A stretch of DNA of 21,078 nucleotides from a virus. Of this stretch, positions 8,476 through 19,896 are shown piece after piece (within the stretch, counting starts at the first letter, position 1; each line of letters opens with the position of its first letter). The DNA lies in IMG/VR virus record IMGVR_UViG_3300004807_000159, positions 1 to 21,078 of that record; one strand, given 5' to 3'. The position numbers and the translations under genes are program-made. The notes under the pieces were generated by a model that worked only from the letters and a program-made list of their open reading frames with translations, made no database searches and was not told the origin of the DNA.

Positions 8476-8483
8476 TATAAATA
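8476..8483 (+). promoter_or_regulatory. T4-type late promoter, exact consensus
   Basis: TATAAATA matches the T4 late consensus at all eight positions and lies in the 33-base gap between two virion genes. A start near 8489 would give a leader of about 14 bases carrying GGAA (8492-8495) before the ATG at 8503. A second, weaker AATAAATA overlaps the upstream stop codon at 8466-8473. Confidence 0.7.
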
Positions 8484-8502
8484 CACTTATTGGAAACATT
8501 AA

Positions 8503-9408
8503 ATGAGTAACGTAAACCCTAATAATATTAACGGTGCATATCCTGTAGCTGGCGTTGACAATGATAGTCAAGGCTTCCGTGATAATTTTACAAACATTAA
8601 AAACAATTTTGCTTACGCACAAAGTGAACTTGCTGATTTGCAAGCAAAAGCAATTGTAAAAAGTGCACTTACAGGAACAACTCTTAATAACAATATGGCT
8701 GGTACATTGCTTACAAGTGCTCAAATTCAAGATTTCCGTGAAACAGAATATGATAATGGTATCATTTCTACAAACGTTACTCTTGACCATAGTCGCGGTC
8801 ATTACCAAAGAGTGCAAACTAATGGCACTATTACTATTGCATTTACTAACTTTCCAGCTGCTGGCACTGTAGGCAGAATTCGTTTACGTTTGTATGTTAC
8901 TAATAGTTCTCATCGTATGATTTTACCAAGTGGTGTTTCTTATGGCACACAATATCTTCAAGATTATAACCAAACTAATAACAGTGTTGGTTATTCACAA
9001 AGTGGAACTGGTGTTTATTGGTATGAATTTATAAGCGATGATGGTGGTGTTACATATACTGTATTCCCACTGTCACGTGCACGTAATAACGTTGATTATT
9101 ATTATGCAAATATTGCAAACGGAACTGCTGCAAGTCCAACTGCCGTATCTATAGTTTCTAAATTAATTTTAGATAGCAACGTGGGACTGCCATTAAGCAA
9201 TGTAAGTGTAACATTTCCAAGTAACCCAATTGATGGACAAGTAATTCAACTTGCATCAAACGTCAATATCAGCAATCTATTCTTGTTAAGCGCAAATACA
9301 ATTAATGGTAATACAACTACGATTAGTAGTGGAACACACTATGGATTTACATTCGTGGGTTCTCCTCGTAATCCAACCATTAATAAGTGGTTTAAAACAC
9401 AGATTTAA
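8503..9408 (+). CDS. Fibre or baseplate-associated virion protein
   Basis: A 301-residue protein whose N-terminus (NNINGAYPVAGVDNDSQGF then RDNFTNIKNNFAYAQSEL) resembles virion proteins of marine T4-like phages and shares its plan with the protein at 2402: an IN.G motif, a D-N-D or N-D-G turn, and an amphipathic helix ending NNF. This probably attaches the protein to a common baseplate or fibre partner (inference). The rest is beta-rich with many Asn, Thr and Tyr, and has no signal or membrane segment. It follows an exact late-promoter match and is the last of the three-gene structural block. Confidence 0.72.
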   Translation: MSNVNPNNINGAYPVAGVDNDSQGFRDNFTNIKNNFAYAQSELADLQAKAIVKSALTGTTLNNNMAGTLLTSAQIQDFRETEYDNGIISTNVTLDHSRGHYQRVQTNGTITIAFTNFPAAGTVGRIRLRLYVTNSSHRMILPSGVSYGTQYLQDYNQTNNSVGYSQSGTGVYWYEFISDDGGVTYTVFPLSRARNNVDYYYANIANGTAASPTAVSIVSKLILDSNVGLPLSNVSVTFPSNPIDGQVIQLASNVNISNLFLLSANTINGNTTTISSGTHYGFTFVGSPRNPTINKWFKTQI

Positions 9409-9410
9409 TA

Positions 9411-9439
9411 TTGACTAAAAATTCATCTTACATTATATT
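9411..9439 (+). promoter_or_regulatory. Sigma70-type promoter for the mazG operon
   Basis: TTGACT (9411-9416), a 17-base spacer and TATATT (9434-9439) form a near-consensus promoter placed 2 bases after the stop of the structural block. The predicted start near 9446 leaves a leader of only about 10 bases, with GGAG at its very 5' end before the ATG at 9456. It marks a switch from late-type to host-polymerase-type control. Confidence 0.8.
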
Positions 9440-9455
9440 AGTGTAGGAGTAAATC

Positions 9456-9872
9456 ATGACAGACCTTAAACTGTATCAGGAATTTGTTAGCGCAGTAACA
9501 AGTGAACCTAGTAAGCACAATTATGCTTTTAGCGAACGTTTTGACCAATTGAGCGAATACCAAGAAGATAAAACTAAAATTAATCCAGCACTACTTCTTA
9601 CTGCTGGCATGGGTTTAAGTGCTGAAAGCGGTGAATTTAACGAAATCATCAAAAAGATGTTTTTTCAAGGCAAGCCACTTAATGCAGAAAATGTATTTCA
9701 TATGAAGCGTGAACTAGGTGATATTATGTGGTATTGGGTTAATGCTTGCACAGCACTCGGTCTTGACCCAAATGATGTAATTAATGAGAATGTTAAAAAG
9801 TTAGAGTCACGTTATCCAGGCGGTAAGTTTGATGCTTGGTATAGTGAAAATCGCAAAACTGGAGATTTATAA
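9456..9872 (+). CDS. mazG: MazG-like nucleotide pyrophosphohydrolase
   Basis: A 138-residue all-alpha NTP pyrophosphohydrolase of the MazG-like family, which cleaves NTPs or dNTPs to NMP and PPi in a Mg-dependent manner. The metal-binding residues are visible: Glu57 and Glu60 in GLSAESGEFNE, and Glu86 and Asp89 in KRELGDIMWY. The first Glu of the usual EExGE is Ala here. The C-terminal ENVKKLESRYPGGKFD is typical of phage members. It is a single-domain form, about half the length of E. coli MazG. Phage MazG has been proposed to alter (p)ppGpp or nucleotide pools; the true substrate is unknown. SD AGGAG (9445-9449) lies 6 bases before the ATG. It overlaps the next gene by 1 base. Confidence 0.88.
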   Translation: MTDLKLYQEFVSAVTSEPSKHNYAFSERFDQLSEYQEDKTKINPALLLTAGMGLSAESGEFNEIIKKMFFQGKPLNAENVFHMKRELGDIMWYWVNACTALGLDPNDVINENVKKLESRYPGGKFDAWYSENRKTGDL

Positions 9873-10108: not shown

Positions 10109-10758
10109 GTGATGTAAGTTGGCAAGCAGAATTTACTGCTATAAACTGCTATAAAGATGTTCTTGAGCCTTGTAGTTATAATATTAGCATAGACTTTAAT
10201 GACCATTCAAAAGAGGAAGAAGACCCCTATACTTGTTTTGGTCGTATACGTAATTTAATTAAAGATTTATATCAAGATTCAATATTTGTATATATTGGTA
10301 ATCCACTACTTCCTACACTGCATAAAAAATTAAGTTCACGTATTATTACACTGCCTTATGCTCCAAGCAACTTTGTAATTGGTGTTGTAACATGGTATAA
10401 AATTTTAAGTATCACACAAGGTCGCGTTAGCCTTGAACATATTGCTGTTTCATGTGACAAAAGCGACGACATGACACTTCATGTTGATGAAGATATTGCA
10501 ACAAACGATGAAGTAATGAATGATTTGGCTTTTAAAAATTGGGATAGACCTGCTTGGTGGTTTAGAAACACACCAACCACTTGGGATATTCCTATTGTTA
10601 AAAATAAAGAAATCACTATGGACTATGACTATGCTGAATGGCCAGAATATTTGCAATGGGAAAAAAAACCTGTTACAATAGAAAAAAAGAAAGCAAAGAG
10701 TAATATCATTCCGCTCAAGAAATGGAAGCCAGAGGTCATCAAAGGTGATAAAAACTGA
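10105..10758 (+). CDS. Hypothetical protein (217 aa)
   Basis: I do not recognise this protein. The first 110 residues look like an alpha/beta domain, with acidic clusters (DHSKEEEDPY) and a hydrophobic strand (FVIGVVTWYKILSI). The middle is acidic, then Trp-rich (NWDRPAWWF, TTWDIP). The last 40 residues are strongly basic (KKPVTIEKKKAKS, PLKKWKPEVIKGDK), which could contact nucleic acid or be disordered. It starts on an ATGA overlap and its end overlaps the GTG of the DnaE-like gene by 14 bases. Operon position between mazG and a polymerase-like fragment hints at DNA metabolism, but that is only context. Confidence 0.65.
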   Translation: MSDVSWQAEFTAINCYKDVLEPCSYNISIDFNDHSKEEEDPYTCFGRIRNLIKDLYQDSIFVYIGNPLLPTLHKKLSSRIITLPYAPSNFVIGVVTWYKILSITQGRVSLEHIAVSCDKSDDMTLHVDEDIATNDEVMNDLAFKNWDRPAWWFRNTPTTWDIPIVKNKEITMDYDYAEWPEYLQWEKKPVTIEKKKAKSNIIPLKKWKPEVIKGDKN

Positions 10759-11260
10759 CGAATATGGTCGTAGCGTAATCAGTGATAGTGAATTAGCTGA
10801 ATTACTATACATAAATCCGCAACTTAAAATTGATGATATTGCTATCATTGATCCAGAAAAATATAATTCTGCTATCAAAAGTTTGTATATTGATTATCAA
10901 CCATTAAAAAACTTAGCAACCTTAAATGGAAGTATGCAAGAATTTCACAGACAAAATCAACAAGAATGGTTTATGCCAGATGATTACAAAGATTTAGATA
11001 TTGCTAAGTGGGTTTTAGATCAATGCACAAACCAAAACGAATTGCAACGTGCTGGTCAAGAACTTATGGTTTATGCTGAACGTAACTTATTACCACTGCT
11101 ACAATACTTAAAATATTTTGTTGACACGATGCGCAATAATAATGTAGTATGGGGTGTTGGTCGTGGTAGCAGCGTAGCCAGCTTTGTTTTATACTTAATT
11201 GGTATTCATCGCATTCACAGTTTAAAACAAAATTTAGACTTTGGTGAATTCATGCGTTAA
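10745..11260 (+). CDS. Short protein resembling the DNA polymerase III alpha palm start
   Basis: A 171-residue protein whose C-terminal half matches the first palm segment of bacterial C-family polymerases (DnaE). LQRAGQELMVYAERNL aligns with the R-L-x-x-E-L-x-V-I helix, and VVWGVGRGSSVASFVLYLIG (134-153) with the DnaE motif VGPGRGSAAGSLVAY.LGIT. IHSLKQNLDFGEFM aligns with DPLxYNLLFERFL. The protein stops where DnaE would continue into NPER..PDID, so the catalytic aspartates are absent. There is no PHP domain; residues 1-75 are unrelated. It therefore cannot be an active polymerase by itself. No continuation is seen in other frames downstream. The start is GTG, with AGAGG at 10731-10735 nine bases upstream. 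It may be a repurposed binding module (inference). Confidence 0.65.
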   Translation: MIKTDEYGRSVISDSELAELLYINPQLKIDDIAIIDPEKYNSAIKSLYIDYQPLKNLATLNGSMQEFHRQNQQEWFMPDDYKDLDIAKWVLDQCTNQNELQRAGQELMVYAERNLLPLLQYLKYFVDTMRNNNVVWGVGRGSSVASFVLYLIGIHRIHSLKQNLDFGEFMR

Positions 11261-11279: not shown

Positions 11280-11696
11280 ATGCATCGCACTGCAAATGGA
11301 AGATTTTTAGACTTAAACGCTCTAAAAATTCAACAAGAAAGAACAATAGCTGTTGGTAATAGTAGACAGAATGCTCGTGGAGATATTCTTGGACCAGGAG
11401 GACAAATTGTTAAAACAAGAGATCAGATTATGACTGAATATTATAATGCACAAAAAGGTTCACCATTGGTTGATGCGCCTGTATATAATAATCAAGATGA
11501 AGCAAATGCGGCGGCTGTTGCAGATATATTTTCTGACCCTATGGACAATGGAATTGATGATATAATTAATTCACAACTAAATCCAACAACAATAAACCCA
11601 ACTTCACCACCTTCTTCCAATGGCGGTGTTGCCGATGCCGAAGCACGTAGTCAAGATTTAGCAGAACGTTTGAGAAACCAGAGACGAAGAATATGA
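11280..11696 (+). CDS. Conserved small phage protein, probably late
   Basis: A 138-residue protein with an N-terminal plan (TANGRFLDLNALKIQQERT, AVGNSRQNARGDILGPGG, TRDQIMTEYYNAQKG) that I associate with small conserved proteins of marine T4-like phages; function is not known to me. The central part is acidic, then Pro/Ser/Thr-rich (NPTTINPTSPPSSNGG), and it ends in an Arg-rich helix (AERLRNQRRRI). No membrane segment. A late-type promoter and a strong SD precede it, and it overlaps the GroES-like gene by four bases, so the two are co-transcribed. A head or assembly protein that uses the co-chaperonin is a possibility only. Confidence 0.6.
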   Translation: MHRTANGRFLDLNALKIQQERTIAVGNSRQNARGDILGPGGQIVKTRDQIMTEYYNAQKGSPLVDAPVYNNQDEANAAAVADIFSDPMDNGIDDIINSQLNPTTINPTSPPSSNGGVADAEARSQDLAERLRNQRRRI

Positions 11697-12079
11697 CAGA
11701 ACTCAACAAAGCAAAAAGTAGTTTACACCACATTTTAGGTGATTATCGTAAAATTACTCCCACAAAAAACAATGTTCTTGTAAAAGACATGGATTTTGGT
11801 GAACGCATGACACTTGGAGGCATTATCATTATTGATGATGACAAAAAAGGTCAAGGTATTCGCCCACGTTGGGCACAAGTTGTTGCTGTCGGACGACTTC
11901 AAGAAGATGTAAAGCCAGGTGAGTATATTCTTGTTGCACATGGTCGTTGGACACGTGGTCTTGATATGACAGATGAAAACGGCGAAACTACCACTGTTCG
12001 TCTTGTTGATCCAAAAGATATTCTACTTTCCAGTGACGAGCCACCAAAGGAAGATTTGACCTTTGGCGATTATATTTGA
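11693..12079 (+). CDS. GroES-like co-chaperonin (T4 gp31 role)
   Basis: A 128-residue Cpn10-fold protein. NNVLVKDMDFGERMTLGGII matches the GroES start with its mobile-loop region (the G-G-I-x-[IL] GroEL-contact pattern: LGGIIII at about 42-48). RPRWAQVVAVG and VKPGEYILVAHGRWTRG match the core barrel (RGEVLAVG, VKVGDIVIF), and VRLVDPKDIL the last strand. It is longer than host GroES (about 97 aa), with extra N- and C-terminal segments, like phage co-chaperonins such as T4 gp31. It would cap host GroEL to fold phage proteins, in T4 the capsid protein. It starts on an ATGA overlap. Its TGA stop is embedded in the TTGACA of the next promoter. Confidence 0.82.
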   Translation: MTELNKAKSSLHHILGDYRKITPTKNNVLVKDMDFGERMTLGGIIIIDDDKKGQGIRPRWAQVVAVGRLQEDVKPGEYILVAHGRWTRGLDMTDENGETTTVRLVDPKDILLSSDEPPKEDLTFGDYI

Positions 12080-12104
12080 CAGCAATCACATTTCATAGTA
12101 TAGT
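12076..12104 (+). promoter_or_regulatory. Sigma70-type promoter for clamp loader, leaderless geometry
   Basis: TTGACA (12076-12081, perfect), a 17-base spacer and TATAGT (12099-12104). The last base of the -10 is exactly 7 positions before the A of ATG 12111, so the expected transcription start is the start codon itself. The intervening bases aatatc hold no SD. The upstream TGA stop lies within the -35 element. Confidence 0.82.
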
Positions 12105-12110
12105 AATATC

Positions 12111-13040
12111 ATGATTACAAATTATCTTTGGACAGAAAAATACCGTCCACGCACGGTAAACGATTATGTTTGGCGTGATGATGCACAGCAAGCACAAGTT
12201 CGTCAGTGGGTAAATGAGAAGAATATTCCACATCTTCTATTCAGTGGCGGACCAGGAACAGGTAAAACAACGCTTGCCAAGGTTCTAATGAATGATCTTG
12301 GCGTAGAAGATTATGATATTATGCAAATCAATGCGTCAAGAGATAATGGTGTAGATTTTATCCGTGATCGCATTGAAGGATTTGTATCCACAATGCCATT
12401 TGGTGAGTTTAAGGTAGTGCTGTTGGATGAGGCAGATTATCTGTCGCCCAACGCACAAGCAGTGTTGCGTGGGCTGATGGAGACTTATAGCAGCACTGCT
12501 CGTTTTATTATGACTTGCAACTATCCTAATAAGATTATTCCAGCGTTGCATAGTCGTTGTCAAGGTTTCCACATTGAGAAACTTGACAAAACAGAATTTA
12601 CTGCGCGAACAGCAACAATCCTTGTTGAAGAAAATATACTCTTTGAACTGGATGTTTTAGATACATATGTTAGCGCACAGTATCCAGATTTGCGCAAGTG
12701 TATCAATTCACTGCAGAGTGGCAGTAGTAATGGTGTTCTACAAACTATATCACAAGGTTCACAGAACAGCAGTGATTATAGATTGCAAGCAGTTGAACTG
12801 TTCAAGTCTAAAAATATTCGTGAAGCACGTAAGCTAATTTGCAGCCAAGTTCGTCCCGATGAAATGGAAGAAGTATTTCGTTGGATGTATGATAATCTTG
12901 ATTTGTTTGCAAACAGTGATGAAGCGCAAGACCGTGCTATTATTATCATCCGCAATGGATTAGTAAATCATAGCATGGTTGCTGATGCTGAAATCAATTT
13001 AAGTGCTACATTGTGTGAATTGGCAGAACTAAATGACTAA
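12111..13040 (+). CDS. 44: Sliding clamp loader ATPase, gp44-like
   Basis: A 309-residue AAA+ clamp loader subunit of the RFC/gp44 type, which opens the sliding clamp and places it on primer-template DNA. Visible motifs: TEKYRPRTVNDYVW (8-21) typical of RFC small subunits, Walker A GGPGTGKTT (46-54), Walker B VVLLDEAD (102-109), sensor 1 MTCNYPNKI (134-142), and the SRC arginine-finger motif (148-150). The C-terminal helical domain would form the collar. Length agrees with T4 gp44 (319 aa). No Shine-Dalgarno precedes the ATG and the promoter predicts leaderless mRNA. The gene overlaps the next by 8 bases. Confidence 0.93.
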   Translation: MITNYLWTEKYRPRTVNDYVWRDDAQQAQVRQWVNEKNIPHLLFSGGPGTGKTTLAKVLMNDLGVEDYDIMQINASRDNGVDFIRDRIEGFVSTMPFGEFKVVLLDEADYLSPNAQAVLRGLMETYSSTARFIMTCNYPNKIIPALHSRCQGFHIEKLDKTEFTARTATILVEENILFELDVLDTYVSAQYPDLRKCINSLQSGSSNGVLQTISQGSQNSSDYRLQAVELFKSKNIREARKLICSQVRPDEMEEVFRWMYDNLDLFANSDEAQDRAIIIIRNGLVNHSMVADAEINLSATLCELAELND

Positions 13041-13401
13041 ATCCATTACTAAAAAAGACCCAGATTCTTTTTTAAATTGGTTTTGGAAAAATTATAACCA
13101 AAAGCTAAGAAGACGAAAGTTTACACAAAAAGAAAAAGAAATACTACGACCGATAGCTGAAATTATGGCTATAATGGATGGTAATGCTTTCTTTGGTATG
13201 ACTCGCAATGAACAAGGCGATGATACTTGGTATGAACAGTATTTGCCCGAAGCATGGGCAATATATAAAGCACAAGGAAAAGACGGCGGTTGGATTCAAG
13301 AAACAAGTTGGGCAAAAAACCTACAACATGAAAACACCGCCGTCAAAGATGCTTATGAAAATTGGCGACTACTTAAATTACTAAGCCGTAAATCTATCTA
13401 A
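13033..13401 (+). CDS. Hypothetical protein after the clamp loader (122 aa)
   Basis: A basic, Trp-rich 122-residue protein (FLNWFWKNYNQKLRRRKF, then ILRPIAEIMAIMDGNAFFGM). It overlaps the clamp loader gene by 8 bases and is certainly co-transcribed. In T4 the small clamp loader subunit gp62 occupies this position, but gp62 is longer (187 aa) and I see no specific motif in common, so I do not call it gp62. The DGNAFFGM..WYEQYLPEA region seems to be the conserved core. It ends tail-to-tail with phoH, sharing 8 bases. Confidence 0.65.
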   Translation: MTKSITKKDPDSFLNWFWKNYNQKLRRRKFTQKEKEILRPIAEIMAIMDGNAFFGMTRNEQGDDTWYEQYLPEAWAIYKAQGKDGGWIQETSWAKNLQHENTAVKDAYENWRLLKLLSRKSI

Positions 13402-14152
13402 TGTCACCATATATTCGCAATACTTCTTCTACTGCTGGATGACGTTCAATATCACCGCCAGTGAATTCAATAGTTCCTACGTGTTCACTATCACGGAAAC
13501 TATTAATAAGTTTATTAAAATCTAACAAACCATTTTCACCTTCTGTTCTATCAGTTTGACGCACGTCACCTGTAACAATAATTCGACTTCCTTCACCAAT
13601 GCGTGTAAGCAACATCTTCATTTGATTTGGCGTGGCATTTTGCATTTCATCAGCAATGATAAGTGCATTTTTAAATGTGCGACCACGCATAAAGGCAAGT
13701 GGGCAAATTTCAATAACACCATTTTCAATCATAGAAAGTGTATCACGTGGTGTATAATATTCATGAAGAACATCAAATAGTGGTTTTGTCCAAGGTTCCA
13801 TCTTTTGAACCAAATCACCTGGTAAAAAGCCATGACGTTCGCCTTCGACACCAACTGCTGGTCTAGTCATCACAATTTTATCAATAGTGCGTTCTTTAAG
13901 AAATTTAATCGCTGATTGCATTGCAAGCAGTGTTTTACCTGTTCCTGCTGGTCCACTAGCAATAATAATGCTAACATTTGGGTCCATGAGCAGTGATAGG
14001 TAATTTTCTTGGTTTAAATTTCTTGGGATGATTTCAACAATTCGTTTTTTCTGTGGTAGGAACTGGTCTATTTGTGTTACGTTGTAATAATTTTTAGATT
14101 GTGATGCGTTGTTTGGGTTCATATAGTCTTTTAATTTTTGTTTACGCTTCAT
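13394..14152 (-). CDS. phoH: PhoH-like P-loop ATPase
   Basis: A 252-residue PhoH-family ATPase, the only convincing minus-strand gene. Motifs: Walker A GPAGTGKT (67-74), the family stretch TRPAVGVEGERHGFLPGDLV (96-115), Walker B IIADEMQN (165-172) and the TGD sensor (194-196) in IIVTGDVRQTDR. It covers the C-terminal PhoH ATPase domain and ends there, close to marine phage forms. PhoH is common in marine phages; its role is not settled, and links to phosphate stress or RNA metabolism have been proposed. AGGAAG lies about 10 bases before the ATG. Opposite orientation implies separate control. Confidence 0.93.
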   Translation of the reverse strand: MKRKQKLKDYMNPNNASQSKNYYNVTQIDQFLPQKKRIVEIIPRNLNQENYLSLLMDPNVSIIIASGPAGTGKTLLAMQSAIKFLKERTIDKIVMTRPAVGVEGERHGFLPGDLVQKMEPWTKPLFDVLHEYYTPRDTLSMIENGVIEICPLAFMRGRTFKNALIIADEMQNATPNQMKMLLTRIGEGSRIIVTGDVRQTDRTEGENGLLDFNKLINSFRDSEHVGTIEFTGGDIERHPAVEEVLRIYGDIR

Positions 14153-14157
14153 GAATT

Positions 14158-14186
14158 ATTATCTTCCTGTGCTGGTTGTAGCACAA
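14158..14186 (-). promoter_or_regulatory. Candidate sigma70-type promoter for phoH
   Basis: On the minus strand TTGTGC (14181-14186) is followed after 17 bases by GATAAT (14158-14163), only 5 bases before the phoH ATG. The -10 matches five of six positions, the -35 only three. An SD-like AGGAAG overlaps this region, so a promoter further upstream with a normal leader is equally possible. A TGTGCT/AGCACA hairpin (14168-14185) covers the same bases. Confidence 0.3.
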
Positions 14187-14226
14187 AATTATTTAATTTT
14201 TGTTTTTAACAGTTTTATGTAAAGTT

Positions 14227-14251
14227 TGCACATTGAATTTGTGCATAAATA
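14227..14251 (+). promoter_or_regulatory. Late-type promoter next to an inverted repeat
   Basis: CATAAATA (14244-14251) matches seven of eight positions of the T4 late consensus. It is preceded by the inverted repeat TGCACA (14227-14232) / TGTGCA (14240-14245) with a 7-base loop. AAGG (14256-14259) follows 8 bases before the ATG at 14268. This lies in the 115-base divergent gap between phoH and the unknown/lysis operon; I see nothing else in that gap except the minus-strand phoH signals. Confidence 0.5.
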
Positions 14252-14267
14252 TTTTAAGGTTGTCACT

Positions 14268-14810
14268 ATGGATATTAAACAGAATTTAAAAAGTGTAAAA
14301 CAGATTTATATGAGTGATGCTGCAATCAGCATGCTCTGTGATTTTGAACGTGTATTGGATAGTATGGATTTTTATACTTTTCCAAACTGGCGTTTAGGTG
14401 AATTAGTAGAAGGGCCAATTGTAAGCCGTTATTGGGTTAAATGCACATTTATGTGGCCCCGTGACCGTATGCCTGATCCTGCTGCTGCAAAACGTTTATT
14501 GCCTTATGGTGCTAAAATAAATTACAAAAAAGATAAAGTTCAAATGCCAGTTGAGATTCGTAGTCCAGCAGACATTAGACCAGGCAGTCACAAAGGTAAA
14601 TTAGTTGACTTTCCTATTTGGTATGTAGAAATGCTTTTACCAAAGAAATTAATGGGTGACATTAAACAAGGAAGTGTCGATATTGCTGGTGAAGAAGTTG
14701 ATTTGGCAGATTTACAAGCAAGTATTGAAAAAGGTTTAATAGACCAATCTACTACAAACAAAGGCATAGAACCAGAAACAGAGGGTCAAGAAAATGAGCA
14801 AACAGCTTGA
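14268..14810 (+). CDS. Conserved hypothetical phage protein (180 aa)
   Basis: A 180-residue soluble protein of unknown function. It has an N-terminal helix pair (DAAISMLCDFERVLDSMDFY) and a beta-rich middle (VSRYWVKCTFMWPRDRMPDP). The segment LLPYGAKINYKKDKVQMPVE and the IRPGSHKGKLVDFPIWYVEM stretch look conserved. The tail is acidic and Gln-rich. I chose ATG 14268, which has AAGG 8 bases upstream, over an in-frame ATG at 14226 that lies within the inverted repeat and upstream of the late-promoter motif. It overlaps the next gene by 17 bases and looks functionally paired with it. Confidence 0.65.
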   Translation: MDIKQNLKSVKQIYMSDAAISMLCDFERVLDSMDFYTFPNWRLGELVEGPIVSRYWVKCTFMWPRDRMPDPAAAKRLLPYGAKINYKKDKVQMPVEIRSPADIRPGSHKGKLVDFPIWYVEMLLPKKLMGDIKQGSVDIAGEEVDLADLQASIEKGLIDQSTTNKGIEPETEGQENEQTA

Positions 14811-15315
14811 TGAAGGCTTGCAAATGAATGATCTAAAATATCTTGTTGATGATACAATTCATATTGATGAATTTAATAGCAAGATGGGACAAGCAAGTGA
14901 TGTTGTTACACTAAGTTTCAAAGTTAAAGATTTAATGCCAGCTACTGATTTAGTAAGTTTTTTAGAAAATGGCTATGACTTTGTGCTTGATGCTGATGTA
15001 AGCACTGGTGAAATTCGTGATAATGAACGTTTAGTTTTTGTTGAAGTTCAACGTAGACCTGGTATTTTTAAATATGTAAGTGAAATGTTAGATGATCTTA
15101 ATCATTTAACTGGTATTGACCGTAGTTCTTGGAAATTTCGTTGGTATAAAAGCAATGATTACATTGCAATGAATGAAGAGAACTTTGAAAAATTTGTGCC
15201 ACTCACTGCTGAAGGTTATGAAAAAAGTATTGAAGAGTTTAACAAAGTAAAAAGTGACACTAAAAAGTTAAATAATGATATAGAAGAAATCAAGAAACTT
15301 AGTGGAATCAATTAA
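14794..15315 (+). CDS. Conserved hypothetical phage protein (173 aa)
   Basis: A 173-residue acidic protein of unknown function. Beta-rich stretches (VVTLSFKVKDLMPATDLVSF, RLVFVEVQRRPGIFKYVSEM) are followed by a charged C-terminal helix (VKSDTKKLNNDIEEIKKLS) that may form a coiled coil. GAGGG at 14781-14785 supports the ATG at 14794; an alternative ATG at 14824 has a weaker site. The stop shares one base with the i-spanin start (TAATG). It is placed in the same late-type transcript as the lysis genes. Confidence 0.65.
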   Translation: MSKQLDEGLQMNDLKYLVDDTIHIDEFNSKMGQASDVVTLSFKVKDLMPATDLVSFLENGYDFVLDADVSTGEIRDNERLVFVEVQRRPGIFKYVSEMLDDLNHLTGIDRSSWKFRWYKSNDYIAMNEENFEKFVPLTAEGYEKSIEEFNKVKSDTKKLNNDIEEIKKLSGIN

Positions 15316-15716
15316 TGTTCGGTTTTAGCCTTTGGAAAATTGGTATCGTTCTAGCATTAGGTCTAGCGATAGTAGGGTATTTTAAATATACCCAAGATGA
15401 ATTAGCAAGATTAAATCAAGAAGTAGCAACAAAAGATTTTGCACTTAAAACAACTACAGAAACTTTAAAGAAAACACAAGAAGATTTGCAAGCACAACAA
15501 GCTATTGCAACAAAAGCATTTAGTGATTATCAAGCCGCTCGTCAAGAAGTAAACGATATTCAAGAAAAATTTACTAAAAATGGGCGTGATTTGGGTGCAT
15601 TTGCACAAAGTAAACCAAAAGAGTTGCAAAAGCGCATGAATGATGCAACTGCTAAATCATTCCGTTGTATCGAAGATACTGTCAATAAAGGAACCGCAAA
15701 TGTACCAGGTTGCTAA
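15315..15716 (+). CDS. Inner-membrane spanin (i-spanin, Rz-like)
   Basis: A 133-residue type II membrane protein: a short N-terminal cytoplasmic tip, one membrane segment (WKIGIVLALGLAIVGYF, about 7-23), then a long helical region with coiled-coil character (residues about 28-110). It ends with cysteines (FRCIEDT, PGC). This is the plan of phage Rz-type i-spanins, which bridge the periplasm and fuse inner and outer membranes in the last step of Gram-negative lysis. The call rests mainly on topology and on the overlapping lipoprotein gene behind it, the classical Rz/Rz1-like arrangement. GGAA lies 8 bases before the ATG. Confidence 0.7.
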   Translation: MFGFSLWKIGIVLALGLAIVGYFKYTQDELARLNQEVATKDFALKTTTETLKKTQEDLQAQQAIATKAFSDYQAARQEVNDIQEKFTKNGRDLGAFAQSKPKELQKRMNDATAKSFRCIEDTVNKGTANVPGC

Positions 15717-16110
15717 ATTTAGTTCTGCGGCACTTGTGACTGCAATTTTAATGGGTTGCCAAACTGCGCAGCCAACAACAGCAGTTGCAATTGTTGAGAA
15801 ACCAACATTAGTATTGCCAAGCGTTGATAATGTTAAGTTAAATGACGTAGAATGGCATGTTATAAATAAAAACGCCAAATCTGGTGCGGAAGACCACATT
15901 GACACAGCATTTAGAGAAGCACATAGCGAAAGCCTTTTTGCAATTAACCCAAGAGATTATGAAGACTTGGCAGTCAACCAAGCCAATCTTGTTAAAGTCA
16001 TTAGACAATATCAAGCTCAAATTAGCGCATACAAATCTTATTACGATGCCCAAGCTGCTCAGCCAGCAACAACCAAAACTGGAGCCTCAAGTGGCAGCGG
16101 TAGTAATTGA
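15700..16110 (+). CDS. Outer-membrane lipoprotein spanin (o-spanin, Rz1-like)
   Basis: A 136-residue lipoprotein. The start MYQVAKFSSAALVTAILMGC is a signal peptide with the lipobox LMGC, acylated Cys20 and Gln at +2, consistent with outer-membrane sorting. The mature part begins Pro/Thr/Val-rich, then has a helical C-terminal half (NQANLVKVIRQYQAQISAYK), and ends Gly/Ser-rich. ATG 15700 is chosen because AAGGA lies 7 bases upstream and because a longer in-frame start at 15640 would bury the signal peptide. The first 17 bases overlap the i-spanin gene in another frame. It is larger than lambda Rz1, comparable to separated or partly overlapping o-spanins. Confidence 0.75.
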   Translation: MYQVAKFSSAALVTAILMGCQTAQPTTAVAIVEKPTLVLPSVDNVKLNDVEWHVINKNAKSGAEDHIDTAFREAHSESLFAINPRDYEDLAVNQANLVKVIRQYQAQISAYKSYYDAQAAQPATTKTGASSGSGSN

Positions 16111-16723
16111 AGAAGACGACGAACCAATTGGTCCACGCCGTATGGCAGATGATGAGCGTCCAGAAGATGCGCAATTAAAAACATCTGCACCTGTTGCACC
16201 AGTAGCTACTCTATCTGAAGCTGACCAAAATAATTTGGAACTTCGTAAACTTCGTCTTGAAGAAAGACGTTTTGAATTAGAAGAGAAAAAAGAATTTCAT
16301 AAGATGGCGATTGAAGATCGTCACGAAGACCAAAAAGAAGATGAAATTGCTTACGAACGTGCGCAAATAGCAAAAGATGAAAGCAAAAAAGATGAAAAAG
16401 CCAGTGAACACTGGATGAAAGCATATTGGCGACCAGCCATGGGATGGCTTTATATGTTGATCTGCTTCTTTGATTTCGTCGTTGCACCAGTTTTAAGTAT
16501 GCTTATGCCAATATTCCTAAAAAGTCTTGGCGCAAATACAGTTACCTATACACAATGGCAAAGTTTAACACTTGCAAATGGTGGATTAATTCACCTTGCA
16601 TTTGGTGCAATTTTAGGTGTTACTGCTTGGGGCAGAACACAAGAAAAGAATGCAGCTAATAATGCCGCTAATGCAGCAAATGGCGGTGGTAAACCATCGG
16701 GCGGTTCAATTGCCACAACTTAA
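16091..16723 (+). CDS. Putative holin with coiled-coil N-terminus
   Basis: A 210-residue membrane protein if started at GTG 16091, which has GGAG 6 bases upstream; ATG 16046 or 16142 are alternatives without an SD. Residues 45-105 are a highly charged helix (LRKLRLEERRFELEEKK). Membrane segments follow at about 117-143 (GWLYMLICFFDFVVAPVLSM) and 161-180 (LANGGLIHLAFGAILGVTAW), then RTQEK and a Gly/Asn/Ala tail. The RPAMGWLY..PLTL-like..GAILGVTAWGRTQEK pattern resembles the phage/GTA 3-TM holin type. Position right after a spanin pair supports a role in making inner-membrane holes for endolysin. No endolysin is seen in this window. Confidence 0.65.
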   Translation: MAAVVIEEDDEPIGPRRMADDERPEDAQLKTSAPVAPVATLSEADQNNLELRKLRLEERRFELEEKKEFHKMAIEDRHEDQKEDEIAYERAQIAKDESKKDEKASEHWMKAYWRPAMGWLYMLICFFDFVVAPVLSMLMPIFLKSLGANTVTYTQWQSLTLANGGLIHLAFGAILGVTAWGRTQEKNAANNAANAANGGGKPSGGSIATT

Positions 16724-16726
16724 TGC

Positions 16727-16755
16727 TTGACAAAATTTAGTATGTGTAGCATAAT
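16727..16755 (+). promoter_or_regulatory. Sigma70-type promoter for dnaJ, leaderless geometry
   Basis: TTGACA (16727-16732, perfect), a 17-base spacer and CATAAT (16750-16755). The -10 ends 7 positions before the A of ATG 16762; the intervening tacatt has no SD. The predicted transcript starts on the start codon. The -35 begins 3 bases after the stop of the holin gene. Confidence 0.82.
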
Positions 16756-16761
16756 TACATT

Positions 16762-17634
16762 ATGAATCATTATGAAACTCTTGGGGTATCACAAACAGCT
16801 ACCCCAGAAGAACTTAAATCGGCTTTTAGAAAATTAGCTAAACAGCATCATCCCGATGTAGGTGGTGATGTGGCTAAATTTCAAGCTATTAATGAAGCAT
16901 ATAATACACTAAGCGATCCAAATAGTCGTGCACATTACGACCATACTTTGCGTAATCCGCAACCACAATTTCAACATAATCCTTATACCCAACGTGGTCC
17001 AAGCCCATTTGAATTTCATTTTAACTTTGGTGGTGGACCAGACCCAATGTCTGCTTTTCATGACCAATTTTTTAGCCAATTTGGTTTTCAAACAAGGCAA
17101 CAACCACGGAACCGCAACTTGCGTATCCAAATAGATATTCCATTTTTAGAAACATTAAATCCACAAAATAAAGTTATAGAATTTAAAACCACAAACAATA
17201 CCGAACGGTTAAATTTAGAAATTCCCGCTGGCGTAGAAGATGGTTTTGTTTTTCAAGTTGTAGGACGTGGTGATGATGCAAATCCTGGAATTCCTCGTGG
17301 TAATTTAGATGTTCAAATTCGTGTTCATCGTCATGAACGTTTTGTAAGAAATAATGAAAATATTATGGAAGATATTACAATTGATGCTTTTCAAGCGATG
17401 ACAGGATGTAAAATTCCTGTAAATTTGCCCAGTGGTAAAACCATTGAAATAAACATACCAGCAGGAACACAGCACCAGAGTCAATTTGGTATTACGGATG
17501 AAGGATTTCCAAGGCAAAATGGCACTCGTGGAAAGTATATTGCAAGAATAAATGTTAAAATTCCATCAATATTAACAGCAGAACAGCTAAATTTAGTAAG
17601 AAAAATACAAGAATTACGACCAATAAATACTTGA
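16762..17634 (+). CDS. dnaJ: DnaJ/CbpA-like Hsp40 co-chaperone
   Basis: A 290-residue class B Hsp40. The J domain (about 1-62) has YETLGVSQTATPEELKSAFR and the essential HPD (30-32), which stimulates the DnaK ATPase. A Gly/Phe/Pro-rich linker follows (about 65-115). Residues 120-285 are the two C-terminal substrate-binding beta domains (VEFKTTN..IPAGVEDG.., IPRGNLDVQIRV.., INIPAGTQ). No CxxCxGxG zinc repeats are present, so it resembles CbpA (306 aa) rather than DnaJ proper. It would act with host DnaK; no phage DnaK is seen here. It has no SD and a leaderless-type promoter. Its TGA stop lies in the -35 of the clpA promoter. Confidence 0.92.
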   Translation: MNHYETLGVSQTATPEELKSAFRKLAKQHHPDVGGDVAKFQAINEAYNTLSDPNSRAHYDHTLRNPQPQFQHNPYTQRGPSPFEFHFNFGGGPDPMSAFHDQFFSQFGFQTRQQPRNRNLRIQIDIPFLETLNPQNKVIEFKTTNNTERLNLEIPAGVEDGFVFQVVGRGDDANPGIPRGNLDVQIRVHRHERFVRNNENIMEDITIDAFQAMTGCKIPVNLPSGKTIEINIPAGTQHQSQFGITDEGFPRQNGTRGKYIARINVKIPSILTAEQLNLVRKIQELRPINT

Positions 17635-17658
17635 CAAGTCTGAAAACTGTGTTATATT
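17631..17658 (+). promoter_or_regulatory. Sigma70-type promoter for clpA, leaderless geometry
   Basis: TTGACA (17631-17636, perfect), a 16-base spacer and TATATT (17653-17658). The -10 ends 7 positions before the A of ATG 17665; agtatt between them is not an SD. The dnaJ stop codon is inside the -35. A late-like AATAAATA (17622-17629) lies just upstream within dnaJ codons and may be chance. Confidence 0.82.
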
Positions 17659-17664
17659 AGTATT

Positions 17665-19896
17665 ATGACAAATTTTAACAGCAACGGCGACCTTGAAAAA
17701 GTAGTTAAGATAGCAAAACAGTTTGCTATTGATAACAATCACCAATATTATACAGTGGAACATCTACTTGTTAGTATGCTCCATGAACGTGGATTTAGTC
17801 GTATTCTTACACAAATAGGCATTGATGTTGAAAGCCTAGTGCAAGATTTGGAAAATTATATCTTTGATAATATTCCACAAGGCAAAGATTCAGTTGAACC
17901 TAAAAAGACACAAACACTTGAACGTGTCTTTAACCGTGCTTTTACACAAGTTATATTGTTAGGTCGCCAAACTATTAACATTACTGATCTTTATCTTAGT
18001 ATCAGTAAAGAAACTCAAAGCCATGCTGCTTACTACTTAAAAAAATATGGTGTTGAACCTGAAAAGGTTATGGAAGTTTTTGCTAACGAGCGCAAAAAGC
18101 AAAGCGGATTTAACAGTAGCAGTGCGCTTGATGAATATTGTACCAACCTTAATGAATTAGTTGTTGATGGCAAGATTGATCCTGTCATTGGTCGTGTAAG
18201 TGAAATTGCGGACATGACACAAATTCTTGCTCGTAAGAATAAATGCAATGTTATTCTTGTTGGTGATCCTGGCGTAGGTAAAACTGCAATTGCCGAAGGT
18301 CTTGCATATAAAATTGTCCATAATGAAGTTCCAAAGTTCTTGCGTGGGCATGATGTTTATAGCCTAAACATTGGTTCGCTGTTAGCTGGCACCAAATATC
18401 GTGGTGATTTTGAAGAACGATTACAAGAAATTATGAATGCTGCAGTAGAACGTGGCAATGTTATCTTGTTCATTGACGAAGCACATCAAATGAATGGTGC
18501 TGGCGCTGGTAGCCAAAGCAATGTTGATTTTGGCAACATGATTAAACCAGCATTGGCACGTGGCGATTTTAAAGTTATTGCTTCTACTACGTGGGAAGAG
18601 TACACCAAGCATTTTGAAAAAGACCGTGCGCTTATGCGCCGCTTTAACAAAGTAAATGTTGGCGAACCAAGTATTGAAGATTGTAAAACAATTATGCTTG
18701 GTATCAAAACAAATTATGAAGCATTTCATAATGTTAAAATTACAGATGCTGCTGTTATTGAAGCAGTTATGTTGAGTCATCGTTATCAAGCAGATAAGAA
18801 GCTGCCAGATAAAGCAATTGATCTAATTGACAGTGCTGCTGCACTTCGCCGCACACAATCACGTGGTTCACGCACTATTGACGTAAATCAAATCCGCCGT
18901 GAATTAAGCCGCATTACTGGTATTCCAGAGTCGCAACTTGGTGCAGAGAATACACAAAAACTTATGCCTAATCTTGACAAAGATATCAAGGCTAAAGTTT
19001 ATAATCAAGATGCGGCTGTTGATGCTGTTCTTGACCGTGTATGGGTAAGTCAAGCTGGCTTAAAGGCTGATAACAAGCCTGTTGGTTCATTCCTATTTCT
19101 TGGTCCAACTGGCACAGGTAAAACAGAACTTGCAAAGCAATTAAGTGAAAAACTTAGTATGAAGTTGTTGCGCTTTGATATGAGTGAATATCAAGAACGG
19201 CATAGTATTTCACGATTGATTGGTGCGCCTCCTGGCTATGTTGGATATGAAGATGCTAACCTTGCTGGCGGATTGCTTATTAGTGAAGTTGCTAAAAACC
19301 CACATTGTATCATTCTGTTTGACGAGATTGAAAAAGCACATCCAGATGTTGCACAAGTGTTGTTGCAAGTTATGGATGAAGGTTTCATCACTGGCACCAA
19401 TGGTAAACGTGCTGACTGTCGCCAATCACTACTGATTATGACCAGTAATCTTGGTGCCGCTGACAGTGAACGTCTTGTTATTGGTTTTGGTAATCAAGAT
19501 CGTAGTGATGCGGTTGATGCTGCTGTTAAAGAGCATTTCCGTCCAGAGTTCCGCAATCGTGTAGATGCGATTGTTACATTCAACAAACTGGATAGCAAAA
19601 CTATCCGTAAGATTGCTGAAAAGTTCATTGCTGAACTACAAGCACAAATGTCAGGTAAAAACATCACGCTTGATGTTACTGACGCTGCTTATGATTGGCT
19701 TGTCAAGAAGGGTTATAGTCCACTTCTTGGTGCAAGACCAATGAGCCGCACAATTCATGAACATATTAAGACTCCGCTTGCAAAGAAAATACTGTTTGAC
19801 AAATCACAAAACGGTGTTATTATTAAAGTAGACTTGCTTGGTGACAAGTTAGAATTGGTGGCAGAAAATGACAGTAACAGAACAAACGCTGATTGA
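17665..19896 (+). CDS. clpA: ClpA-type AAA+ unfoldase
   Basis: A 743-residue Hsp100 unfoldase with the ClpA layout (E. coli ClpA is 758 aa). It has an N-terminal Clp-N domain (HQYYTVEHLLVSML..), D1 with Walker A GDPGVGKT (200-207) and Walker B LFIDEAHQ, and D2 with Walker A GPTGTGKT (480-487), Walker B ILFDEIEKAHPDV, RPEFRNR arginine finger and GARPMSR sensor 2. The ClpB/ClpC middle domain is absent. In D2 the loop LVIGFGNQD carries the [IL]-G-[FL] tripeptide (Ile606-Gly607-Phe608) at the place of the ClpP-docking IGL of ClpA, so it probably works with a ClpP peptidase. No clpP is seen here, so the partner would be host or elsewhere in the phage. It has no SD. Confidence 0.93.
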   Translation: MTNFNSNGDLEKVVKIAKQFAIDNNHQYYTVEHLLVSMLHERGFSRILTQIGIDVESLVQDLENYIFDNIPQGKDSVEPKKTQTLERVFNRAFTQVILLGRQTINITDLYLSISKETQSHAAYYLKKYGVEPEKVMEVFANERKKQSGFNSSSALDEYCTNLNELVVDGKIDPVIGRVSEIADMTQILARKNKCNVILVGDPGVGKTAIAEGLAYKIVHNEVPKFLRGHDVYSLNIGSLLAGTKYRGDFEERLQEIMNAAVERGNVILFIDEAHQMNGAGAGSQSNVDFGNMIKPALARGDFKVIASTTWEEYTKHFEKDRALMRRFNKVNVGEPSIEDCKTIMLGIKTNYEAFHNVKITDAAVIEAVMLSHRYQADKKLPDKAIDLIDSAAALRRTQSRGSRTIDVNQIRRELSRITGIPESQLGAENTQKLMPNLDKDIKAKVYNQDAAVDAVLDRVWVSQAGLKADNKPVGSFLFLGPTGTGKTELAKQLSEKLSMKLLRFDMSEYQERHSISRLIGAPPGYVGYEDANLAGGLLISEVAKNPHCIILFDEIEKAHPDVAQVLLQVMDEGFITGTNGKRADCRQSLLIMTSNLGAADSERLVIGFGNQDRSDAVDAAVKEHFRPEFRNRVDAIVTFNKLDSKTIRKIAEKFIAELQAQMSGKNITLDVTDAAYDWLVKKGYSPLLGARPMSRTIHEHIKTPLAKKILFDKSQNGVIIKVDLLGDKLELVAENDSNRTNAD

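Follow-up and report, generated by a model that had tools for sequence, protein, structure and literature searches.

The genes for a clamp loader, DnaJ and ClpA in the analysed stretch of viral DNA are very likely transcribed from sigma70-type promoters whose +1 coincides with the A of the ATG, which would yield leaderless mRNAs, and the same arrangement is predicted for a genome-wide class of genes in a lineage of uncultured jumbo phages. The whole stretch, referred to as the window, comprises 21,078 nucleotides with a GC content of 36%, and its genes lie close together in a single orientation, 30-38 nt apart (Table 1). All three promoters have a TTGACA-like -35 box, a spacer within 16-18 bp and a TATAAT-like -10 box. 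The original prediction held that the A of the ATG lies 7 positions past the last -10 base, and this geometry was verified at 3/3 sites. The pattern TTGACA-N16/17-NANNNT-N6-ATG matched only these three sites in the entire window. In 100 dinucleotide shuffles of the window the mean was 0.11 matches and no shuffle reached three, so that the three fixed-spacing arrays are confirmed as an observation beyond chance. A Shine-Dalgarno (SD) sequence of at least 4 nt was found at none of the three starts, as compared to 14 of 23 other plus-strand starts examined and phoH, which bears out the claim that these starts differ from their SD-bearing neighbors. At the clamp loader and clpA sites the -35 box overlaps the TGA stop codon of the preceding gene.

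Table 1. Coordinates of the genes, promoters and phage bS21 genes discussed (window positions unless a genome is named)
Feature	Coordinates	Strand	Details
T4 gp44-like clamp loader, 309 aa	12111..13040	+	PHROG 168, 2.7e-82
DnaJ chaperone, 290 aa	16762..17634	+	PF00226, 7.8e-21; PF01556, 5.9e-29
ClpA-like ATPase, 743 aa	17665..19896	+	PHROG 4871, 1.6e-246
Predicted leaderless promoter, clamp loader	12076..12113	+	TTGACA (12076-12081)-N17-TATAGT (12099-12104)-N6-ATG (12111); predicted +1 = A at 12111
Predicted leaderless promoter, dnaJ	16727..16764	+	TTGACA (16727-16732)-N17-CATAAT (16750-16755)-N6-ATG (16762); predicted +1 = A at 16762
Predicted leaderless promoter, clpA	17631..17667	+	TTGACA (17631-17636)-N16-TATATT (17653-17658)-N6-ATG (17665); extended -10 TGT; predicted +1 = A at 17665
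Contrast: leadered mazG promoter	9411..9458	+	TTGACT-N17-TATATT, then 16 nt including AGGAG, ATG 9456
Contrast: T4-type late box CATAAATA	14244..14270	+	16 nt upstream of ATG 14268, with AAGG
Contrast: T4-type late box TATAAATA	8476..8505	+	19 nt upstream of ATG 8503
Phage bS21, G001	C1:331176-331328	-	PF01165
Phage bS21, G005	C1:77813-77965	-	PF01165
Phage bS21, PA5oct	170985-171143	+	PF01165

Misassigned start codons were ruled out by homology and by the absence of SD-led in-frame ATGs. Within 50 codons downstream of the three starts no in-frame ATG with an SD was found; the use of such starts had been named beforehand as a result that could overturn the prediction. The sole SD-like alternative start is a GTG at 16870, which lies inside the J domain of dnaJ. 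The window also contains a leadered sigma70-type promoter in front of mazG (identified by PF03819, 5.2e-10), and the same leadered arrangement is present in the relative G005 at 11613. Several further genes in the neighborhood could be assigned. A GroES-like Cpn10 gene (11693-12079; PF00166, 1.6e-06) lies directly 5' of the clamp loader in this chaperone-rich region, and dnaJ is preceded by a probable lysis cassette (15315-16723) with a 3TM holin (PF11351, 2.6e-06). Ahead of the holin a possible spanin pair was recognized by eye, consisting of an N-terminally hydrophobic coiled protein and an overlapping frame with a lipobox-like LMGC. A 171-aa protein (10745-11260) matches just part of DNA polymerase III alpha (PF07733, 1.3e-09; PHROG 11127) and resembles a small DnaE-like gene that is also found in Phosso.

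The source, an IMG/VR virus record, consists of the 21-kb window alone and genome-wide counts were therefore obtained from relatives. G001 (338 kb), G005 (131 kb), G002, G003, G004 and G007, all uncultured, were taken whole, distant jumbo-phage contigs (G021, G022, G027 and G028) were scanned, and PA5oct and the first 400 kb of Phosso served as cultured comparison genomes. Genes were called by a simple longest-ORF caller on contigs that may be incomplete, and seeming gaps of 7 or 13 nt were disregarded in a few places where a nearby SD-led start provided a better fit. The best cultured matches are the jumbo phages PA5oct and Paride of Pseudomonas, Phosso of Sinorhizobium and Atu_ph07 of Agrobacterium. 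A search for a relative among genome contigs that might identify the host returned none.

A generic sigma70 matrix detected 25 promoters at 6 nt from the start codon in G001 and G005 together, representing 19 distinct families, as compared to 0-4 at any other gap between 0 and 16 nt. The remaining promoters in these two genomes mostly lie 17-40 nt from the start and have SD leaders, and few sigma70-type promoters are found at 9-16 nt. A second matrix was built from long-leader promoters only and is hence blind to the question of the 6-nt gap; among the strong promoters that it picked out, 13 of 45 (G001) and 11 of 24 (G005) nevertheless lie at this distance. In the four distant contigs the generic matrix yielded 30 promoters at 6 nt, 8 at 5 nt and 5 at 7 nt. 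The Poisson probabilities of the two 6-nt peaks are 3e-32 and 7e-32 under the assumption of independent sites, which orthologs are not. PA5oct and the first 400 kb of Phosso showed no such peak in the same scan, with one promoter at 6 nt in both together, and the peak is therefore not a product of the method. The predicted genome-wide enrichment of the spacing was thus recovered.

The gap is also conserved among relatives of the individual genes. For the clamp loader, the -10 box ends 6 nt before the ATG in 23/23 relatives (75-100% identity, some contigs being near-identical), while the sequences of spacer, -10 box and discriminator differ. A clear TTGACA is missing from two of these relatives (L023 and L024); in L023 the ATG lies one codon into the match. 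The promoter in the sub-group of the window has the same geometry with a spacer sequence unrelated to that of the other relatives. In outgroups of approximately 70% identity (L027, L028 and L030), 17 nt separate promoter and start and the SD is AGAGGT, which indicates that a switch between leadered and leaderless arrangements occurred. In L005-L007, L013-L022 and L026 the clamp loader spacer contains an inverted repeat, CTAAC-N5-GTTAG or close variants, that is missing from the window's own sub-group and is possibly an operator. All seven clpA relatives that contain the start (71-98% identity) have the 6-nt gap, and the clpA outgroup examined (50-54% identity) has mostly SD leaders. The 28 relatives of dnaJ (52-85% identity) are more variable, with 6 nt in 10, 7 nt in 5 and no such promoter in 13; this absence from about half of them counts against the reading favored here. 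A dnaJ group of 34% identity (L151-L154) has TTGACA-N17-TATAAT-N7-ATG. Among other genes, 6 nt separate promoter and ATG in 29/29 primase relatives (76-100% identity) and in 8/8 relatives of DexA; many primases of approximately 40% identity have 6 or 7 nt, as do part of the UvdE relatives. For primase, DexA, UvdE, DnaJ, SbcD and DnaB, gaps of 5-7 nt also recur in distant contigs, where identity falls as low as approximately 35%. Conservation in relatives had been anticipated and was found in full for the clamp loader and clpA and in part for dnaJ. Together with the genome-wide enrichment, the conserved gap strongly supports the claim that the promoters are positioned for leaderless mRNAs and that the fixed spacing is selected.

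Further features point to the A of the ATG itself. With the strict pattern, ATG was found 37 times at gap 6 and 0, 0, 2, 3, 1 and 2 times at gaps 3, 4, 5, 7, 8 and 9, and among other start codons at gap 6 there were 2 GTG and 0 TTG. An SD of at least 4 nt was detected in 4/25 and 0/30 gap-6 genes, as compared to 34/46 and 62/88 leadered genes. A pyrimidine directly 5' of the ATG occurs in 22/25 and 27/30 gap-6 genes, exceeding its frequency among leadered genes (Fisher P 0.03 and 0.0007). Weaker 5' mRNA structure was considered as an additional mark of leaderless genes and discarded, since gap-6 and leadered genes did not differ significantly (P 0.14 and 0.24). Bacterial leaderless genes have their -10 boxes approximately 12 bp upstream of the start codon (Zheng et al., PMC3160421), and the distance in these phages matches this value. 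With the -10 box placed for a start on the A, the SD absent and the start codon nearly always AUG, the best reading is that transcription begins on the A of AUG and that translation would be leaderless. The geometry, its conservation, the bimodal distances, the absence of SDs, the ATG preference and the pyrimidine are seen directly in the sequence; the exact +1, direct initiation by ribosomes and its benefit are what we infer.

The alternative that survives best accepts the promoters as real and places the transcription start 1-4 nt upstream of the A, which would leave mRNAs with a very short leader and no SD, functionally near-leaderless. The start site of sigma70 promoters can shift by one or two bases around position 7, and gaps of 5 or 7 nt do occur in some relatives. 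However, the sharp maximum at a single gap, the preference for ATG and the pyrimidine in front of it fit a start on the A, and the range of 9-16 nt is nearly empty of promoters; such short leaders are considered unlikely. It is considerably less probable still that the genes are expressed mainly by reinitiation on read-through polycistronic mRNA and that the promoters carry little weight. The packing of genes in one direction with short gaps would suit this explanation, but internal SD-less starts would be weak, and neither the fixed distance between promoter and ATG nor the SDs of the leadered promoters would be accounted for. Read-through from upstream could additionally yield polycistronic mRNA. 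The low GC content and some background matches to a looser pattern might speak for promoter-like strings that arose by chance in AT-rich DNA, but the shuffles, the conservation and the lack of a peak in PA5oct (33% GC, same scan) refute this explanation.

A start on the A is also suggested for a second type of promoter. In G001, ATAAATA boxes of the T4 late type are located exactly 5 nt before the ATG in nine genes, 8-14 nt before it in none and 15-23 nt before it in thirty, most of the latter with an SD. Three late-box genes with the 5-nt gap were found in G005, and the peak at 5 nt in the relatives is sharp and SD-less. Both hallmarks of T4-type late transcription are present: the boxes in the relatives resemble TATAAATA, and G001 encodes a gp55-like sigma (PHROG 12791, 'sigma factor for late transcription', 1.3e-78), the gene of which adjoins sbcD. 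In T4 the late box and the transcription start are separated by approximately one helical turn (PMC2988020), and a gap of 5 nt therefore fits a start on the A. The same scan for a late box 5 nt before an ATG gave none in Phosso and one in T4. In G028, clpA lies 5 nt downstream of a late-type box and is predicted to be a leaderless gene with a different promoter type.

These observations do not agree with the part of the original prediction that assigned leaderless translation to early or replication genes and SD leaders to late genes. The late ATAAATA boxes have their own SD-less 5-nt class, and SD leaders occur on many sigma70-type promoters. An early/late split is therefore rejected, as both promoter types were found in both placements, SD-less close to the ATG and SD-leadered. 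The predicted leaderless genes with sigma70-type promoters include primase, a DnaB-like helicase, the clamp loader, an SbcD-like nuclease, two exonucleases, dNMP kinase, UvdE, a VWA protein, DnaJ and ClpA, and among the leadered ones are uvsX and nrdB along with an ATPase, an RNA ligase and numerous small genes. Replication genes are frequent in the predicted leaderless class yet are not its defining trait. Leadered promoters in G001 (for example 79701, 213928 and 317910) and G005 (for example 31567 and 42636) share a long common consensus, TTGACAACCCCTAAATCTGTGTTATATT, and often have a second TATA that follows the -10 box after a few bases, close to where transcription is expected to begin. 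Two leaderless candidates were noted in a cultured phage, PA5oct. Its primase (145884-146912) has TTGACA-N17-TATAAT-N6-GTG (145890), with GTG 145884 as the start in the record, and is possibly leaderless from a GTG; ATG 144985 of EST35_0222 is preceded by TATAAATA-N5.

Searches of G001, G005 and PA5oct for RpoB and Sigma70_r2 gave no match, which speaks against a phage-encoded RNA polymerase or sigma70 as the reader and makes the host RNA polymerase the most likely one for the sigma70-type promoters. The ATAAATA promoters would probably be read with the gp55-like phage sigma. Promoters of either type would be placed with +1 on the A and no SD or with a longer SD leader, and few between, and ribosomes may start directly on the 5'-terminal AUG. 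This arrangement may let promoters fit into the narrow gaps between packed genes and may free translation from the need for SD pairing. G001, G005 and PA5oct encode a bS21 protein (Table 1), and bS21 is located near the anti-SD on the ribosome. Phage bS21 was proposed to favor phage mRNAs (PMC9723584), and leaderless mRNAs are translated mostly via direct 70S binding to the 5'-terminal AUG (PMC9031893). A link of phage bS21 to the two initiation modes is possible and is offered as a hypothesis only, because PA5oct has bS21 yet no leaderless peak. That phage bS21 alters host ribosomes during infection, with leaderless and SD-led mRNAs favored at different times, is a speculative extension to which we give little credence.

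Documented leaderless translation in phages mainly concerns a few repressor genes. If it serves primase, helicase, the clamp loader, nucleases and chaperones as predicted, it would be a stable mode of expression that is under selection. Pairs of leadered and leaderless orthologs are available for testing the gain to the virus, 5' ends in uncultured phages become predictable from sequence, and SD-based gene finders can misplace starts in such phages. The literature searched, most subscription papers being outside it, yielded no account of jumbo phages in which leaderless genes form a genome-wide class. Leaderless phage mRNAs as such are known; the genome-wide, replication-rich class with two promoter types appears to be new.

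Among known systems, cI of lambda and cI and cro of PY54, the latter two mapped by RACE (PMC4488713), share a phage promoter, a transcript that begins at the AUG and the lack of an SD, but are single regulatory genes of temperate phages, whereas the class predicted here is genome-wide and contains replication, repair and chaperone genes. Phage transcripts were said to be often leaderless in a study of AR9, whose own leaders measure 26-491 nt (PMC5312081). In bacterial TANNNT leaderless genes (PMC3160421) the -10 box likewise begins, with its first T, 12 bp ahead of the A; the jumbo-phage genes differ in their strong TTGACA -35 box and the parallel leadered class. Lactococcus cremoris, in which no leaders of 4-14 nt were found (PMC10986495), also has two leader classes, near-zero and long, with a gap between them, though its leaders were measured in a bacterium and those of the jumbo phages are predicted. 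T4 (PMC2988020) resembles the relatives in its late box and sigma, and differs in having one such box 5 nt before an ATG as opposed to nine in G001. With PA5oct-like jumbo phages (Arenbergviridae), homology and gene order were compared in the local region: GroES-like gene, clamp loader, phoH, dnaJ and clpA follow the same order in PA5oct and the window, and the clamp loader is 59% identical to those of PA5oct and Paride. Unlike G001 and G005, PA5oct lacks the genome-wide 6-nt peak.
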